From positions 796,315 through 860,314 of the forward strand of contig NZ_QCXS01000003.1 of the NCBI RefSeq assembly GCF_003260015.1: a DNA stretch of 64,000 bases, written 5' to 3'. This DNA is from Nakamurella deserti. GTDB taxonomy: Bacteria > Actinomycetota > Actinomycetes > Mycobacteriales > Nakamurellaceae. The notes below the pieces were generated by a model. That model did not search any database and was not told the DNA's origin. It saw only the letters and a list, made by a program, of their open reading frames with translations. Positions 4,317 to 10,415 of this stretch are shown in pieces. Position 1 is the first letter of the stretch. Every line of letters starts with the position of its first letter. Position numbers and translations under genes: made by a program.

Positions 4317-5144
4317 TCAGAGCGGCGGCACCGCCGCCGGGTCGGGCCGCCACCGCCAGCGCTCGGCCACGCCGGGATCGTTGGCCGCCAGCACCGCGCC
4401 GAGCACGGCGTCGGGATCGCAGCCGTACAGGCCCGACCCCCACGCCTGGTTGGCCTCGAGCACCACGAGGCGGCCGTCGGCGAGCCGGGCGACGTCCAGC
4501 ACCGCCGCCGGCGGGACCGCGTCGCCGCTCAGGCCCCCCAGCAGGTCGGCGACGTGCGCAGCCGCCTCGACGTGGAACGAGGCCCGGTGGGTGTGCAGCA
4601 GCGGTCCCCAGGGCTCGTCCTGCACCCGGTACGCCGAGGCCGTGAGCACCTCGCGGCCCCGGGTGAACACGGGGTACTCGGAGTCGATGTCCAGCCAGTC
4701 GCGGGTGGCCAGCAGCTCGACCGGCAGGTTCCCGGCCGCGGCCATCACGGCGTCGAACTCCGCGACACCGGGATACCGACGAGCCGGCACCAGCCGGCTC
4801 TTGGCGTCGGCCAGTTTGACGAAGACCGGGCCGGTGGTGAGCATCCCCCGGGCGCCGGCGGGCCCGACGCGGTGCCAGGCGCGGCCGGTGACGGCCGGCC
4901 CTAGACCGGCGAACCACTCCGGCGTCGGTCCGGACAGCCGCAGCGGGACGCCGCGGTCCAGCGCCTGCGCGAGCAGTCCACCCGGCGCCCGGAACGCCGA
5001 TCCGGGCGCCGCCGCCGCCGCCACCTCCGCAGGGGTCGGGCCCGGTTCGACGACGGTCAGCCCGCGGCGGGTCGCGGCCGCCCGCAGCCCGGTCCGGCTG
5101 TGTTCGTCCCGCGCGTACAGCACCAGTGTTCGAGGCTCGCCCAT
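4317..5144 (-). CDS. ATP-grasp domain protein (DUF4343-like)
   Basis: A 275-aa protein starting MGEPRTLVLYARDEH. The C-terminal two thirds have ATP-grasp features: a lysine-bearing strand GPVFVKLADAKSR, an acidic Mg-binding strand ending VVLEANQAWGSGLYGCDP, and VQDEPWG before the central sheet. ATP-grasp enzymes join a carboxylate (through an acyl-phosphate) to an amine or thiol. The substrate is not known. It is a single gene, convergent with the anti-sigma gene and about 26 nt downstream of the CobW-like gene on the same strand, so it could be the last gene of that zinc-related transcript. Membership of the family is probable; the function is open. Confidence 0.7.
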   Translation of the reverse strand: MGEPRTLVLYARDEHSRTGLRAAATRRGLTVVEPGPTPAEVAAAAAPGSAFRAPGGLLAQALDRGVPLRLSGPTPEWFAGLGPAVTGRAWHRVGPAGARGMLTTGPVFVKLADAKSRLVPARRYPGVAEFDAVMAAAGNLPVELLATRDWLDIDSEYPVFTRGREVLTASAYRVQDEPWGPLLHTHRASFHVEAAAHVADLLGGLSGDAVPPAAVLDVARLADGRLVVLEANQAWGSGLYGCDPDAVLGAVLAANDPGVAERWRWRPDPAAVPPL

Positions 5145-5170: not shown

Positions 5171-6244
5171 TCAGCCGACCCGGTCGTCCCCGCCCAGCCA
5201 GTCGCCCAGCCCGTCGTCGGCGCCGCGCCACCGGGCGGGGCCGGCGACCCATTCGGCGTCGGTGAGCACCAGGTCGGCGAAGGTCTCCTGGACACGGCGC
5301 CGGTCGTCGTCGACGCCGGTGAACACCATCCGGGTGCTCGGCGGGACGCTGTCCCAGCCGCCGCCGTGACCGATGCTCACCTGACCGCCGGCACCGTCCC
5401 AGACGCACACGGTGTCGCGGCGGGTCGGGAGCACGAACCGCCCACGGGAGCGCAGCCGGCCCGATCCGAGGTCGGCGATCCGGTCGAGGAAGCGGCCCGG
5501 ATGCAGCGGACGGTCCGACACCAGGTCCAGACTCCACACGCCGTGGGCGTCGGCGACCTGCGGCGGCTGCACGCGCCTCGGGTCCAGCCGGGCCTCGGCG
5601 AGCGCGGCGCGGTGGCGCATCCGGAACAACTCGACGCCGACCGTCTCGTACAGCGACGAACGGCTGCTGCCGCGGCCGCGGAGATGGTCGACCAGGGTGA
5701 GCCCGGCCGGGTCCTCGCCGACGGTGAGCAGCAGGTCGGCGTGCGCGATCTGCGCCCCCAGGGCCTCCCCGACGCTGCGCCGGTCGTCGGCGCCGGCACC
5801 CAGCGAACGGTCGGACAACAGGTCGTCGCCCATGATGTCGTCGGTGACGGTGTCGACGTCGACCACGGCGAGGACGCCGGCCAACCGGACACCGAGCCGA
5901 CGCGCGATGTCCGGAGCGGCGAGCGGACGGCTGGCCGGGGTGGCCTCGGCGGTGGCGGGTGACAGCAGCACGATCCGGTCCCACCGCCGGTGGCCGACCA
6001 TCCGGGCCAGCGTCGGCATCGCGCCGTCACGCACCGCGCAGCCCATGCAGGCGTGGTCCATCAGGACGGTCTCGTCCTCGACGATCCCGGCGCTGTCGCT
6101 GATCACGCGGCGGAGCTCCCCCTCGTCGGGGTGCAGGTCGATGCGCAGCACCGCGGTGCGGGGCAGCTCGGTGAGGGCCGAGGCGGCGGTCATCTCACGC
6201 AGGATCGGGTCGACGGTGGACACGACGACGACGGGCACGGGCAC
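5171..6244 (-). CDS. CobW/COG0523-like protein without a P-loop (Mrf-like), in the zinc-free ribosomal locus
   Basis: A 357-aa protein with the COG0523 layout. The N-terminal strand VPVPVVVVSTVDP stands where a GxxGxGKT Walker A loop would normally be, so GTP binding is probably lost. Next comes a CxxC-like metal motif (ACMGCAVRDG), then a CobW C-terminal domain (SDRPLHPGRFLDRIADL, RSRGRFVLPTRRD). Mycobacteria carry a similar P-loop-less protein beside alternative ribosomal genes (Mrf, which recruits a hibernation factor to zinc-free ribosomes). Same role inferred here. GTG 6244 is chosen because AGAGAGG lies 6 nt upstream; in-frame GTGs at 6280 (overlapping the rpsN stop) and 6289 are alternatives. 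Confidence 0.8.
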   Translation of the reverse strand: MPVPVVVVSTVDPILREMTAASALTELPRTAVLRIDLHPDEGELRRVISDSAGIVEDETVLMDHACMGCAVRDGAMPTLARMVGHRRWDRIVLLSPATAEATPASRPLAAPDIARRLGVRLAGVLAVVDVDTVTDDIMGDDLLSDRSLGAGADDRRSVGEALGAQIAHADLLLTVGEDPAGLTLVDHLRGRGSSRSSLYETVGVELFRMRHRAALAEARLDPRRVQPPQVADAHGVWSLDLVSDRPLHPGRFLDRIADLGSGRLRSRGRFVLPTRRDTVCVWDGAGGQVSIGHGGGWDSVPPSTRMVFTGVDDDRRRVQETFADLVLTDAEWVAGPARWRGADDGLGDWLGGDDRVG

Positions 6245-6276
6245 GGGACGGCCTCTCTGGGCGGGGCGGGGACGGG

Positions 6277-6582
6277 TCACCAGCTGCACTTCCGGACGCC
6301 GGGGAGCTCACCGCGGTGGGCCGTGCCCCGGAAAGTGATACGCGACAGAGCCAACCGGTGGAGATGGCCGCGGGGGCGGCCGTCGGAGGCGTCGCGGTTC
6401 CGCAGCCGGGCCGGGCTCGCGTCCGGCGAGAACCGTTGCTGCGCAACCCGGGCCGCGGCACTGGTTGCCGGGGCCGTACCCGGTGCGGCGATCAGGACCT
6501 GGAGGGTGCTCCGGCGGTCGGGGTCCGCGGCAACCATCAGCCGGCGCCGGTCGTTGCGGACGATCCTGGAGTTCCCGTCCAT
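6277..6582 (-). CDS. rpsN: Ribosomal protein S14, zinc-independent paralogue
   Basis: A 101-aa S14 of the long, cysteine-motif-free type. Recognisable segments are IVRNDRRR near the start, and RLRNRDASDGRPRGHL, HRGELPGVRKCSW at the end. The zinc-binding S14 is about 61 aa with two CxxC pairs; here only one isolated Cys remains. Such C-minus paralogues replace zinc-containing S14 in the 30S subunit when zinc is scarce. Its ATG overlaps the rpmB stop by one base (TGATG), showing translational coupling in the leftward rpmE-rpmF-rpmJ-rpmB-rpsN-cobW operon. Confidence 0.95.
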   Translation of the reverse strand: MDGNSRIVRNDRRRLMVAADPDRRSTLQVLIAAPGTAPATSAAARVAQQRFSPDASPARLRNRDASDGRPRGHLHRLALSRITFRGTAHRGELPGVRKCSW

Positions 6583-6818
6583 CAGATCCGCTCACCGCAG
6601 GCCCGGATGCGGGCGCCGGCGGCCTCGATCCCGTTGCGGTCCACGCGCTTCACGCACGGGCACTCAGCCGCAACCCCGGCGGTGCGACCGAGACCGGGAA
6701 CGACATGGCGGTGGCGCTGGACGTCGGGCTCCCCGCGGCGGGAGGTGCCGACGTGGCTGTGCGACACGGAGTGGCCGTCGCCGGGTCCGGCGCCGGTCAG
6801 CTGGCAGCGGTCGGACAT
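6582..6818 (-). CDS. rpmB: Ribosomal protein L28, zinc-independent paralogue
   Basis: A 78-aa L28 starting MSDRCQLTGAGPG, then SVSHSHVGTSRR and a C-terminal VKRVDRNGIEAAGARIRA. The paired CxxC motifs of zinc-binding L28 are missing (only an isolated Cys near the start and CPC). The start at 6818 matches the family's MS-x-x-C-Q-x-T-G opening; the frame extends nine codons further up without a reason to use them. The stop overlaps the next start as TGATG. Compared with other C-minus L28 proteins the central part (DVQRHRHVVPGLGRTAG) looks rather divergent. Confidence 0.92.
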   Translation of the reverse strand: MSDRCQLTGAGPGDGHSVSHSHVGTSRRGEPDVQRHRHVVPGLGRTAGVAAECPCVKRVDRNGIEAAGARIRACGERI

Positions 6819-6851
6819 GGAACTGATCGTCGGGTTCGGGCGCAACGGTCG

Positions 6852-6974
6852 TCAGCCCTGACGGGCTTTCCACTCCGGGTTCCGCCGGTCGACCACGTGG
6901 ACCTTCCCGTGGCGGCGGGCCACGAGTGAGCCGTCCTTCTTCTCCAGTGCGCGCAGTGATGCCCGGACCTTCAT
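6852..6974 (-). CDS. rpmJ: Ribosomal protein L36, zinc-independent paralogue
   Basis: A 40-aa protein opening MKVRASLRALEKKDGS and ending NPEWKARQG. This is the alternative L36 (YkgO type), whose standard form has a CxxC-x12-CxxxxH zinc site; here there is no cysteine. A GAGGAGAGG ribosome site lies about 6 nt before the ATG. It sits 25 nt after the rpmF frame and 33 nt before rpmB in the same leftward operon. Confidence 0.92.
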   Translation of the reverse strand: MKVRASLRALEKKDGSLVARRHGKVHVVDRRNPEWKARQG

Positions 6975-6999
6975 CGGCGTCCTCTCCTCGACGGTGACC

Positions 7000-7169
7000 T
7001 CACGGCTCGAGCCGTTCGGGGTGGCGCTGGTGGTAGCGGACGAGCCGGCCGGGGATCCTCACCCGGCGGCCCGCGATCTCGACCGTGTTCAGGGCCGGCA
7101 GCTGCGCCTGCGACTGCGCACGGCGGGACCGGGTGCCGGACCGTGACGTCTTCCGTGGGGGACCGCCAT
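7000..7169 (-). pseudogene. rpmF: Ribosomal protein L32, zinc-independent paralogue, with a one-base frameshift
   Basis: The ATG at 7167-7169 overlaps the rpmE stop (TGATG) and begins M-A-V-P, the universal L32 start. This frame then leaves the family and stops at 7089. In the adjacent frame a perfect L32 body follows: RKTSRSGTRSRRAQSQ, then the end RLVRYHQRHPERLEP, stopping at 7000-7002. One extra C in the run of five (7157-7161, G on the plus strand) would join the parts into a 56-aa L32. No alternative start was found in the second frame. Either the gene is broken, or the base is missing from the assembly, or frameshifting occurs. Confidence 0.85.
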
Positions 7170-7420
7170 CACCGGCTCCGGGTGCCGTACCGGCGGCGGA
7201 ACTTCTCGATCTGCCCTTCGGTGTCCAGAACGCGAGCCTGTCCCGTCCAGAACGGGTGGGACGCGCTGGTGACGTCCACGACGACCAGCGGATAGGTGCG
7301 CCCGTCCGACCACGTGACGGTGGCGTCGCTGGTCACGGTCGAGCGCGTCAGGAACGCGTCGCCGGTGCTCGCGTCCCGGAACACCACCGGGTGGTAGTCG
7401 GGGTGGATACCGCTTCTCAT
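7169..7420 (-). CDS. rpmE2: Ribosomal protein L31 type B (zinc-independent)
   Basis: An 83-aa type-B L31: [16 protein letters not shown] at the start, then [30 protein letters not shown] and a final EKFRRRYG. It has none of the zinc-binding cysteines of type-A L31. A GAGGAAAG ribosome site precedes the ATG. It is the first gene of the leftward zinc-starvation operon and shares the palindromic site at 7453-7487 with divergent rpmG. Type-B L31 replacing L31 under Zur control is well established in bacteria. Confidence 0.95.
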
Positions 7421-7452
7421 CGTCTTTCCTCGTGCCGGGAACTCCTCCGAAC

Positions 7453-7487
7453 GCTACACTAATGATTGTCGTTCTCATTAGTGTAGC
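7453..7487. promoter_or_regulatory. Zur-like operator: 13-bp perfect palindrome between divergent ribosomal operons
   Basis: GCTACACTAATGA (7453-7465) and TCATTAGTGTAGC (7475-7487) are perfect inverted repeats around a 9-nt centre. The inner part, ATGATTGTCGTTCTCAT, resembles actinobacterial Zur boxes (TGA-x9-TCA with A/T-rich halves). It is an AT-rich island in very GC-rich DNA, 33 nt from the rpmE2 start and 18 nt from the rpmG start, so one bound repressor could control both directions. Assignment to Zur rests on this form and on the zinc-free paralogues on both sides. Confidence 0.8.
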
Positions 7488-7505
7488 GCCGACCAGGAAG
7501 GTCCG

Positions 7506-7670
7506 ATGGACAGCACCGACACCCGGCCGTTCGTGAAACGGCGCTCGACCGCCGGCACCGGCCACCGCTGCGTGACCCGCACGAACCGCCGCGACGATCC
7601 CGAGCGGCTGACTCTGCTCCGGTACGAACGCTGCGTCCGGCGGCGCGTCGAGTTGCGCGAGGAGCGGTGA
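7506..7670 (+). CDS. rpmG: Ribosomal protein L33, zinc-independent paralogue
   Basis: A 54-aa L33: [31 protein letters not shown] and a final RRVELREER. The two isolated Cys do not form the CxxC pairs of zinc-binding L33. AGGAAGG precedes the ATG. It is the first gene of the rightward arm from the Zur-like palindrome. Its stop overlaps a GTG (7667) that would start rpsR. Confidence 0.92.
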
Positions 7671-7908
7671 GCGCGAGCGCGGCACCCGCCGCGGGGACGA
7701 CCGCCGACCGGCCGCGAAGGCGACACCACTCGGCACGGTCGACGACAAGGATGTGACTCTGTTGCGGCGCTTCATCTCCGACCGCGGCAAGATCCGCAGC
7801 CGCCGCGTCACCGGGCTCAGCCCGTCCGACCAGCGGCAGGTCGCGACCGCGATCCGCAACGCCCGCGAGATGGCCCTGCTGCCCTACCCCGGCGGCGCGG
7901 GGCGCTGA
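7667..7908 (+). pseudogene. rpsR: Ribosomal protein S18, zinc-independent paralogue, with a one-base frameshift
   Basis: The GTG at 7667 overlaps the rpmG stop (GTGA). Its frame reads [15 protein letters not shown], then departs from the family and stops about 30 codons in. The next frame has the S18 body: [33 protein letters not shown] and [13 protein letters not shown], stopping at 7906-7908. One missing base near 7705-7725 explains both parts; restored, the protein is 80 aa. The only in-frame start for the body is GTG 7753, which would give 51 aa lacking the N-terminus. Like L32 in the same locus, it is either truly broken or an assembly error. Confidence 0.82.
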
Positions 7909-8271: not shown

Positions 8272-9015
8272 TCACTCCGCCGGGTCGACGCCGGTGGTCA
8301 CGAACTCCTCCGCGATGTCGTGCAGTTTTCGGTTGCGGTCCTGCGACGCGTGCACCAGCAGGCCGAACGCCTGCTGTGCGGTGATCTTGTGACGCTCCAT
8401 CAGGATCCCCTCGGCCCGCCCGATCACGTCGCGATGGGTCATCGCCGCACGGAGTTGCTGGTTCTCCTCGGCTCCGATCATCGCGATCGAGGCGTGGCTG
8501 GCCAGGAGCAGCCCGATCTGTTCGTCCCGGTCGTCGAACGCCGCGGCGTCGGCGGAGTACAGGTTGAGGGCACCGAGGTCGTCGGCGTGCACGTAGAGCT
8601 GCACGGCGAGCATCGACAGGATGCCCAGGTCGGCGGCGGCACCGGCGAACGCCGGCCAGCGGGGATCGACGCGCAGGTCGTCGACCCGGACCGTCAGCTG
8701 CTCCCGGATGGCGTCCAGGCAGGGCCCTTCACCGGTGCGGTACTGCACCTCGTCGATCCGCCGGACCGTCGGATCGGTGGCCGCGGGGGTGGTGATCCGG
8801 CGACGCCGGTCGATCCGGCTGATCCCGGCGTACGTGGCACCGGGGATGTTGACCACGGCGGCGTGCACGATCGCGTCGAGCGTCCGGTCCAGGCCGGGCG
8901 CCTGCTGCAGCGACCTCGCCATGTCGCTCAGCTGCCGGGCCAGGTTGTGGTCGGGCTGGCGCCCGCCGCTGGTCATGCCACGATCGGTGGAACGGGCTGC
9001 CCGGTCGTCGATCAT
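8272..9015 (-). CDS. GAF-ANTAR domain regulator
   Basis: A 247-aa protein. The GAF domain spans roughly residues 30-175 (LDRTLDAIVHAAVVNIPGATYAGIS, TGEGPCLDAIREQ, LGALNLYSADAAAFDDRD). The C-terminal ANTAR domain (about 190-240) has the family's spaced aromatic/Ala pattern: THRDVIGRAEGILMERHKIT, then AQQAFGLLVHASQDRNRKL. ANTAR domains bind paired hairpins in nascent RNA and prevent termination; the GAF domain senses an unknown ligand. AGGAGG lies a few bases before the ATG. It is a single gene on the minus strand, pointing away from a second GAF-ANTAR gene 570 nt away. Such proteins are very common in actinomycetes. The RNA targets are unknown. Confidence 0.9.
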   Translation of the reverse strand: MIDDRAARSTDRGMTSGGRQPDHNLARQLSDMARSLQQAPGLDRTLDAIVHAAVVNIPGATYAGISRIDRRRRITTPAATDPTVRRIDEVQYRTGEGPCLDAIREQLTVRVDDLRVDPRWPAFAGAAADLGILSMLAVQLYVHADDLGALNLYSADAAAFDDRDEQIGLLLASHASIAMIGAEENQQLRAAMTHRDVIGRAEGILMERHKITAQQAFGLLVHASQDRNRKLHDIAEEFVTTGVDPAE

Positions 9016-9498: not shown

Positions 9499-9587
9499 GG
9501 TGACAGTGGGTTCGGAACCAGCCCAGTGCCAGCAGCGCTGCCGGCGCCCCCCGGCGGCCCCGTTCCGACCTGCCCCAGGAGCCCGTG

Positions 9588-10415
9588 ATGATCGACGCCA
9601 CCTCCCATACCGACACGCACCCCGCCCGCGACCGCGTCCCCCCGACCCGACCCACGCCGACGCGACCCTCCCGGAGCACCGACGCCCGCGCGGCCGTCTC
9701 CCTGGAAGCGCGGACCGCGGCAGGGCTGTCGGCTCTCGCGTCCGTGGTCGCCAGTCCCGCCGAGGACGACGGTGACATGACGGTGTCGGCCCTGACGGTG
9801 GTGTCGACGTTCGTGCCCGGGGCACGGTGGGTGACGCTGACCGAACGGCGCCCCGGTCACTCCCGGATCCGCACCCTGGCCAGCAGCGACGCCTCCGGGG
9901 CCCTGGGCGACGAGCTGCAGTTGCGGCTGTCGCAGGGACCCACGGTGCAGGCGATCCGCGAGCGCACCCCGGTCCTGGTCCACGACCTCACGGCCGACAC
10001 CCGCTGGCCCGACTTCAGCCGCGCCGCGGTCGGCCAGACACCGATCCGCTCGGTGCTGAGCTTCCCCCTCCACGGCACCCATGACGCCACCTGTGCGCTC
10101 ACGCTGTACGGCGCGGAGACGCACGCCTTCACCGGTGACGCGGTGTACATCGCGTCGGTGGCCGCGGGCTCCGTCGAGACGGCACTGGCCGGCCTGGCGC
10201 AGCGGCTGCGGGCGCGCAACCTGCACCAGGCCCTGATGAGCAACCGCCGGATCGGCGTGGCGGTGGGCATCCTGATGGCGGCCCACCGGTGGACCGAGGA
10301 GCGCGCCTTTCAGGAGATGGCCACCCTCAGTCAGGCCAACAACCGCAAGGTCATCGACCTCGCCGACGAGGTCATCCTCACCGGGGCCCTGCCGGACTCA
10401 CCGCCGAAGGTCTGA
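9588..10415 (+). CDS. GAF-ANTAR domain regulator, probably stress-induced
   Basis: A 275-aa protein with a Thr/Pro/Arg-rich N-terminal ~35 residues and a GAF domain (about 40-205: VSALTVVSTFVPGARWVTLT, SQGPTVQAIRER, RSVLSFPLHG). The ANTAR domain closes it (about 215-262: SNRRIGVAVGILMAAHRWTE, AFQEMATLSQANNRKVIDLA). ATG 9588 is preferred to the adjacent GTG 9585 because CAGGAG is 6 nt before it. A SigB-like promoter about 90 nt upstream suggests stress control. Its stop is 2 nt from that of the convergent PAP2 gene. As an RNA-binding antiterminator it would act on unknown transcripts. Confidence 0.9.
   Translation: MIDATSHTDTHPARDRVPPTRPTPTRPSRSTDARAAVSLEARTAAGLSALASVVASPAEDDGDMTVSALTVVSTFVPGARWVTLTERRPGHSRIRTLASSDASGALGDELQLRLSQGPTVQAIRERTPVLVHDLTADTRWPDFSRAAVGQTPIRSVLSFPLHGTHDATCALTLYGAETHAFTGDAVYIASVAAGSVETALAGLAQRLRARNLHQALMSNRRIGVAVGILMAAHRWTEERAFQEMATLSQANNRKVIDLADEVILTGALPDSPPKV

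Follow-up and report, generated by a model that had tools for sequence, protein, structure and literature searches.

A 64,000-nucleotide stretch of the Nakamurella deserti genome (hereafter the window; G000:C3:796315-860314, where G000 is the source genome) carries, at positions 5171-7908 of its own numbering, an island of genes related to those for zinc-free ribosomal proteins. We use C- for the zinc-free form of a ribosomal protein and C+ for the zinc-binding form. The island is probably a zinc-sparing island of a known actinobacterial type, repressed by Zur, that has partly decayed while its type-B L31 gene and its gene for an Mrf-like protein are still maintained. The kind of system is known; its set of genes is here unusually full and tightly packed, and probably in partial decay. 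G000 has 4,625,266 bases in six contigs and is 99.55% complete; GC content along the window, in 2-kb steps, is 68-77%.

Homologues of all seven ribosomal proteins with zinc-free forms, the kinds listed by Makarova et al. (PMC3087516), are packed within 1.7 kb (Table 1). Reading outward from a palindrome, the minus strand encodes L31, L32, L36, L28, S14 and an Mrf-like protein with a CobW_C domain, and the plus strand encodes L33 and then S18, in agreement with the divergent layout of the original prediction. That prediction also called the set complete, which is right as to homologues and wrong as to genes, L32 and S18 not being intact reading frames. Identification was by Pfam and NCBIfam searches, except that L32 was recognised solely by a profile of C- relatives (53 bits for its body); Pfam PF01783 matched neither the body frame nor, in the genome search, the L32 position. 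Cysteines number zero in L31, L36 and the bodies of L32 and S18, one in S14, two in L33 and four in L28; C+-type zinc-ribbon CxxC pairs are found in none of the seven, and the CPC of L28 sits in a frame-shifted stretch described below. Absence of zinc-containing paralogues elsewhere had been named as grounds for giving up the prediction, but all seven have one C+ counterpart apiece elsewhere in G000, with cysteine pairs present.

The palindrome, whose Zur-like character had been proposed, pairs at ten of ten arm bases, and a search for AATGA-N9-TCATT allowing up to one mismatch finds one site, an exact one, where 0.14 would be expected (at least one occurs in 14 of 100 shuffles). Mycobacterial-type Zur boxes were sought in 18 other loci, 14 of which have a site scoring at least 13/19 upstream of C- genes. 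A Zur profile made from 15 hand-picked sites in those loci, none from G000, matches only the palindrome within the window (E 0.0024). On the whole genome its four matches fall at three places, of which the window site ranks first at 14.7 bits. The second is a palindrome, hit on both strands, that immediately precedes a ZnuA/ATPase/ABC-3 importer operon, and the third precedes by ten bases a gene for AztD (448.5 bits, cut-off 400). These two are the candidates for the further Zur boxes that the original prediction proposed looking for, and each of the three places fronts a zinc gene, their neighbours being the C- island, the importer and aztD. Three Fur-family proteins are encoded in G000; the one covered by our PDB comparison, a Zur-like protein at G000:C1:82402, has as its best matches 3mwm and Mycobacterium tuberculosis FurB (2o03). 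Of a Zur-regulated C- island we would require both a Zur box in its promoter and a Zur protein in the genome; a predicted box and a putative protein are present, and on sequence grounds Zur control and a zinc-sparing origin are both well supported. The AztD zinc chaperone gene (L202:3631-4884, on contig C2 of G000) has beside it a second AztD-like gene (L202:5866-7470) with a weak match (45.6 bits, cut-off 400).

Not all members have intact frames: L32 and S18 lack a usable start, and L28 has an inner shift. The L32 ATG overlaps the L31 stop and lies one frame off the L32 body, the lesion being single-base in size and located at a run of five C; in six relatives compared at this junction the frame continues from the ATG. 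S18 has no in-frame ATG, GTG or TTG before 7753, that is, until past VDDKD (VDYKD in relatives), and in six relatives compared there the S18 ATG overlaps the L33 stop. Across 91 loci, a start near the profile start is missing in only 3 of 377 locus-by-family cases, namely the window L32, the window S18 and a fragment in L252. L28 carries two mutually cancelling frame shifts, again single-base in size: its inner stretch reads GVAAECPC in frame and GLRLSARA one frame over, and the alternate frame restores L49 and S52, conserved residues otherwise scored as changed.

Substitutions at conserved sites tell the members apart. Where all other C- orthologues share the same residue, changes are found at 8/28 sites in L33, 7/25 in L28 (some in the shifted stretch), 6/23 in L36, 6/29 in S14 and 7/20 in L32 (4/17 without the three of the M-A-V start, which lies outside the matched frame), and at 0/26 in L31, 1/18 in S18 and 4/59 in the Mrf-like protein. 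Other complete rows have 0 to 3 changes outside Mrf, and Mrf rows up to 11; match-shortened rows, which are largely gaps, reach 4 (Lalb L36), 8 (G002 S14) and 12 (G014 S18). With a larger set of 10 to 90 relatives per family and sites conserved at 95%, S14 is changed at 9/37 sites (none of 54 relatives as high, at most 4), L36 at 4/21 (none of 10, at most 2), L28 at 5/20 (one of 57 as high) and L33 at 9/22 (one of 73 as high, an L256 copy with C+-like cysteines), followed by L32 at 2/13. L31 (1/27, with 25 of 90 relatives as high), S18 (2/30, with 8 of 43) and the Mrf-like protein (0/9) are unremarkable.

Other measures give a similar division. The ratio of nonsynonymous to synonymous differences per site (pN/pS) within the genus is raised in L33 (0.53 vs 0.19-0.23), L28 (0.73 vs 0.38-0.55), L32 (0.65 vs 0.44-0.49), S14 (0.66 vs 0.47-0.51) and L36 (0.32 vs 0.16-0.28), with L31, S18 and Mrf inside the range. 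GC content at second codon positions is raised in L33 (0.58 vs 0.40-0.46) and L28 (0.60 vs 0.46-0.54) and somewhat raised in L32, S14, L36, S18 (0.56 vs 0.45-0.50), L31 and Mrf again lying inside the range, a pattern consistent with relaxed selection where the genome is rich in GC. On C- profiles the window L28 (81 bits) scores lower than every other L28, and L33 (66 bits) and S14 (108 bits) score under all other whole copies except the C+-like L256 L33. When the genus genomes were searched, the G000 C- copies were the lowest among the matches listed for L28 (39.2, next 73.5), S14 (59.5, next 84.6) and L36 (40.1, next 57.6), and the G000 C- L33 was not found by that search; the C+ copies of G000 score inside the congeners' range or at its lower limit. 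Five of the seven proteins (L33, S14, L28, L32 and, less so, L36) thus appear to have lost constraint, and L31, the S18 core and the Mrf-like protein appear as constrained as in relatives. What remains of the proposed complete and compact zinc-sparing switch is its predicted Zur control and zinc-sparing origin; its completeness is not supported, given the missing L32 and S18 starts and the apparent loss of constraint in five of seven members.

Several points weigh against partial decay of a Zur-controlled island. The window site's whole-genome E-value, taken alone, is 0.18, and 4 of the 18 compared loci have no Zur-like site of at least 13/19 near their C- genes (none in L035, L040 and L189; that of L039 is ~5.9 kb from its L31). 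Synonymous sites are partly saturated (pS 0.37-0.80), the L28 pN/pS figure takes in the shifted stretch, and rapid adaptive change could equally raise pN/pS. The conserved-site changes of L32 are tied by 2 of 38 relatives, L36 deviates only moderately, and the profile scores of L36 (78 bits), L32 (53) and S18 (106) are inside the relatives' range. L28, L33, L36 and S14 remain open frames, and the indels, known from one assembly only, could be sequencing errors.

Some of these points would be expected if the island were a working seven-protein zinc-sparing set, its lesions being assembly errors and its changed residues the product of fast functional evolution. Such a set would have kept its seven homologues, its strong Zur box and its open frames, as is seen, and lesions of single-base size in L32 and L28, the former at a C run, are of the kind expected; sequencing error is most plausible for S18, whose core is conserved and whose start is missing. 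As a control on error, reference frames from the ribosomal operon of a congener were compared with G000 over 20 kb, and the 18 matching at 65% identity or above (two antisense, one cut by the stretch end) are all unbroken in the same assembly; an apparent break in reference frame r15, which came from two overlapping matched pieces, was set aside because the S8 frame there is continuous. Error might moreover explain the indels but not the substitutions at conserved sites. The low-scoring or missed C- copies of L28, S14, L36 and L33, in a genome whose C+ copies score near those of congeners, also speak against a fully working set, which we consider unlikely.

It is also rather doubtful that no part of the island still functions and that recent decay alone makes L31 and the Mrf-like protein look constrained. 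Several genes are damaged together, and in 6 of 17 genus genomes a second copy of any of the seven was not seen, which suggests a dispensable island (among the six are G005, where a single weak additional L32 match reaches 23 bits, and G009, at 88% completeness, from which L33 and S14 are missing). The invariant sites changed in L31 (none) and Mrf (4 of 59) are however few beside the fifth to third changed in L28, L33, L36 and S14, the palindrome is the best Zur box of the genome, and the Mrf-like gene is intact though furthest downstream on its strand.

Recoding, in which slippage on the C5 run and at the L33 stop would give low levels of L32 and of an L33-S18 product, has very little probability. 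In its favour, the two start lesions both sit where genes overlap, slipping by one base on the C5 run leads directly into the L32 body, and past the L33 stop the S18 frame stays open. Against it, in the six relatives per junction the downstream gene begins at its own ATG with a continuous frame, no known slip signal was identified (no search was aimed at one) and the L32 body has itself lost conserved residues. An extension, in which recoding under zinc starvation would yield all seven proteins in graded amounts, is just as far from likely; the fast-changing L33, S14 and L28 would then be mutually adapted, and the specialised zinc-free ribosome would be controlled at translation as well as by Zur.

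The protein encoded last on the minus strand had been described as a CobW-like protein without a P-loop, and so it is: it has a CobW_C domain (49.7 bits, Pfam cut-off 22), no Walker A motif and CxxC in place of the CXCC of COG0523/CobW GTPases, and it lies in a C- locus. Mrf (MSMEG_6069/Rv0106) shares these features (PMC2770081, PMC13418864), and the lack of GTPase motifs in Rv0106 is already published (PMC2770081). Unlike Mrf itself, the window protein scores 102.1 bits against NF047431, short of the cut-off of 375, making it a distant relative to which function is not transferable. Among 60 co-located CobW-like proteins scanned, the window's included, one has Walker A and all 60 have CxxC; three more, those of L298, L294 and L247, look like ordinary COG0523 proteins whose scanned stretch starts after Walker A. 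A review of the role of Mrf describes Mpy recruitment under control of zinc-dependent Clp turnover (PMC13418864). A hibernation role for the Mrf-like protein is possible by analogy; a protein with a long-HPF C-terminal domain is encoded at G000:C3:92850, and one is found in all 17 genus genomes, 7 of which encode an Mrf relative. AlphaFold2 with three sequences gave a model too weak for a fold search (mean predicted local distance difference test 58.5, predicted template modelling score 0.48), a PDB sequence search gave one chance-level match (E 0.11), and a genome-contig search named two loci, both Luteimicrobium. In congener G013 (L034 and L190) there are two Mrf-like genes, one by L31-L32-L28-S14-L36 and the other by L33-S18.

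A class-level survey covered 393 genomes, 169 with a type-B L31 match at E 1e-25, and the top 80 of these 169 loci were profiled over ~12 kb each, or less at contig ends (3.6 kb for L264). None of the 80 has all seven within ~6 kb; 20 have six members, 27 five, 4 four, 10 three and 10 two, and 9 have L31 alone. In the same profile run congener G010 does have all seven, across 5.4 kb, so that the expectation that few genomes place them together holds with this companion. Within the genus, all seven occur somewhere in 4 of 17 genomes, in one region in G000 and G010 and in two regions in G012 and G013. Literature titles and abstract openings, drawn from few subscription papers, contained no report of all seven in one locus or of this island. 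Having all seven members is not unprecedented, and it is their packing that is unusual. To our knowledge, the C- genes of Streptomyces coelicolor are not all in one locus.

Taken together, two sources put C- forms of all seven proteins somewhere in the genome of S. coelicolor (PMC3087516, PMC6103462): Zur there represses znuABC and the C- L31, L32, L28, L33, S14 and S18 genes, and a C- L36 exists. The window genome is similar in having Zur-linked C- genes and a zinc importer; L36 and L33B of S. coelicolor follow sigma-R (PMC3087516), whereas all seven lie close together here. The C- or alternative ribosomal protein (altRP) locus MSMEG_6065-6070 of Mycobacterium smegmatis, with Zur-controlled C- genes, the CobW-like Mrf gene and rpmE2, is likewise comparable in its Zur control, Mrf gene, type-B L31 and C+ copies elsewhere (PMC7174638, PMC5912738). 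It has predicted Zur boxes before both rpmB and the Mrf gene, against one site found in the window, and encodes five C- proteins (S18, S14, L33, L28 and L31), to which the window adds L32 and L36 in another gene order and with damaged genes. Mycobacteria usually have five to six C- proteins, 'among the highest number', and M. avium and M. leprae have reduced altRP sets with C- genes truncated or absent (PMC5912738). Loss of C- genes, already on record for some actinobacteria, is common to these and apparently to the window, which is caught part-way, with all seven still recognisable.

Table 1. Features of the zinc-sparing island, in window coordinates
Feature	Position	Strand	Remarks
Zur-box palindrome	7456..7484, core 7461-7479	between divergent transcripts	AATGA-N9-TCATT
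L31 type B (C-)	7169..7420	-	intact; NF002462 130.6 bits > 86; normal constraint
L32 (C-) homologue	7000..7169	-	ATG at 7169 one frame off; body 7161 to stop 7000-7002
L36 (C-, type B-like)	6852..6974	-	open, moderately diverged; PF00444 42.2 bits > 26.1; NF002021 50.2 < 70
L28 (C-)	6582..6818	-	open; inner stretch frame-shifted, then restored; PF00830 39.6 bits > 27; TIGR00009 45.4 < 48.3
S14 (C-)	6277..6582	-	open, strongly diverged; PF00253 58.9 bits > 27
Mrf-like CobW_C protein, 372 residues	5171..6289	-	without Walker A, with CxxC; normal constraint
L33 (C-)	7506..7670	+	open, strongly diverged; TIGR01023 38.7 bits > 23.95; PF00471 20.5 < 25
S18 (C-) homologue	7669..7908	+	conserved core, no in-frame start before 7753; PF01084 67.6 bits > 21 (from 7753)

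The Mrf-like gene is followed immediately on its own strand by an R2K-clade ATP-grasp gene (4317-5144), which was dropped as an island member after giving no tblastn match at 1e-3 in 98 compared loci. Two GAF-ANTAR proteins adjoin the island on opposite strands (8272-9015 and 9585-10415).

Zinc-free copies decay repeatedly in the genus: the C- S14 of congener G002 (L186:8596-8897) is split across two frames, and the C- S18 of congener G014 (G014:C1:3313569-3313679) is truncated. Such decay is not unique to the window, because the start and frame survey of 91 loci turned up five split or incomplete genes elsewhere. Four type-B L31 matches with one internal stop (G390:C6:362388, G355:C1:5056316, G424:C14:209814 and G195:C47:29946) are possibly further decayed copies.

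If the island is, as we favour, a partly decayed Zur-repressed one, a fall in zinc would release Zur from the palindrome, both transcripts would be made and zinc-free paralogues would replace zinc-binding ribosomal proteins. In the retained part, derepressed L31B would be swapped into the ribosome, releasing zinc, and the Mrf-like protein might act on the ribosome so altered. The island would have been lost piece by piece in this lineage, selection still keeping L31 and the Mrf-like protein and leaving the rest as an S18 core conserved without a start, a frame-disrupted L32, and L28, L33, S14 and, to a lesser degree, L36 with constraint probably lost.

C- sets in the genus range from none to seven, in one or several loci and with some copies broken, and the question of which zinc-free replacements matter can be put to this natural series. 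In the window island, L31 and the Mrf-like protein appear to keep normal constraint and L33, S14, L28 and L32 do not. Where frames and constraint go unchecked, lists of zinc-free paralogues may credit them with too much function.

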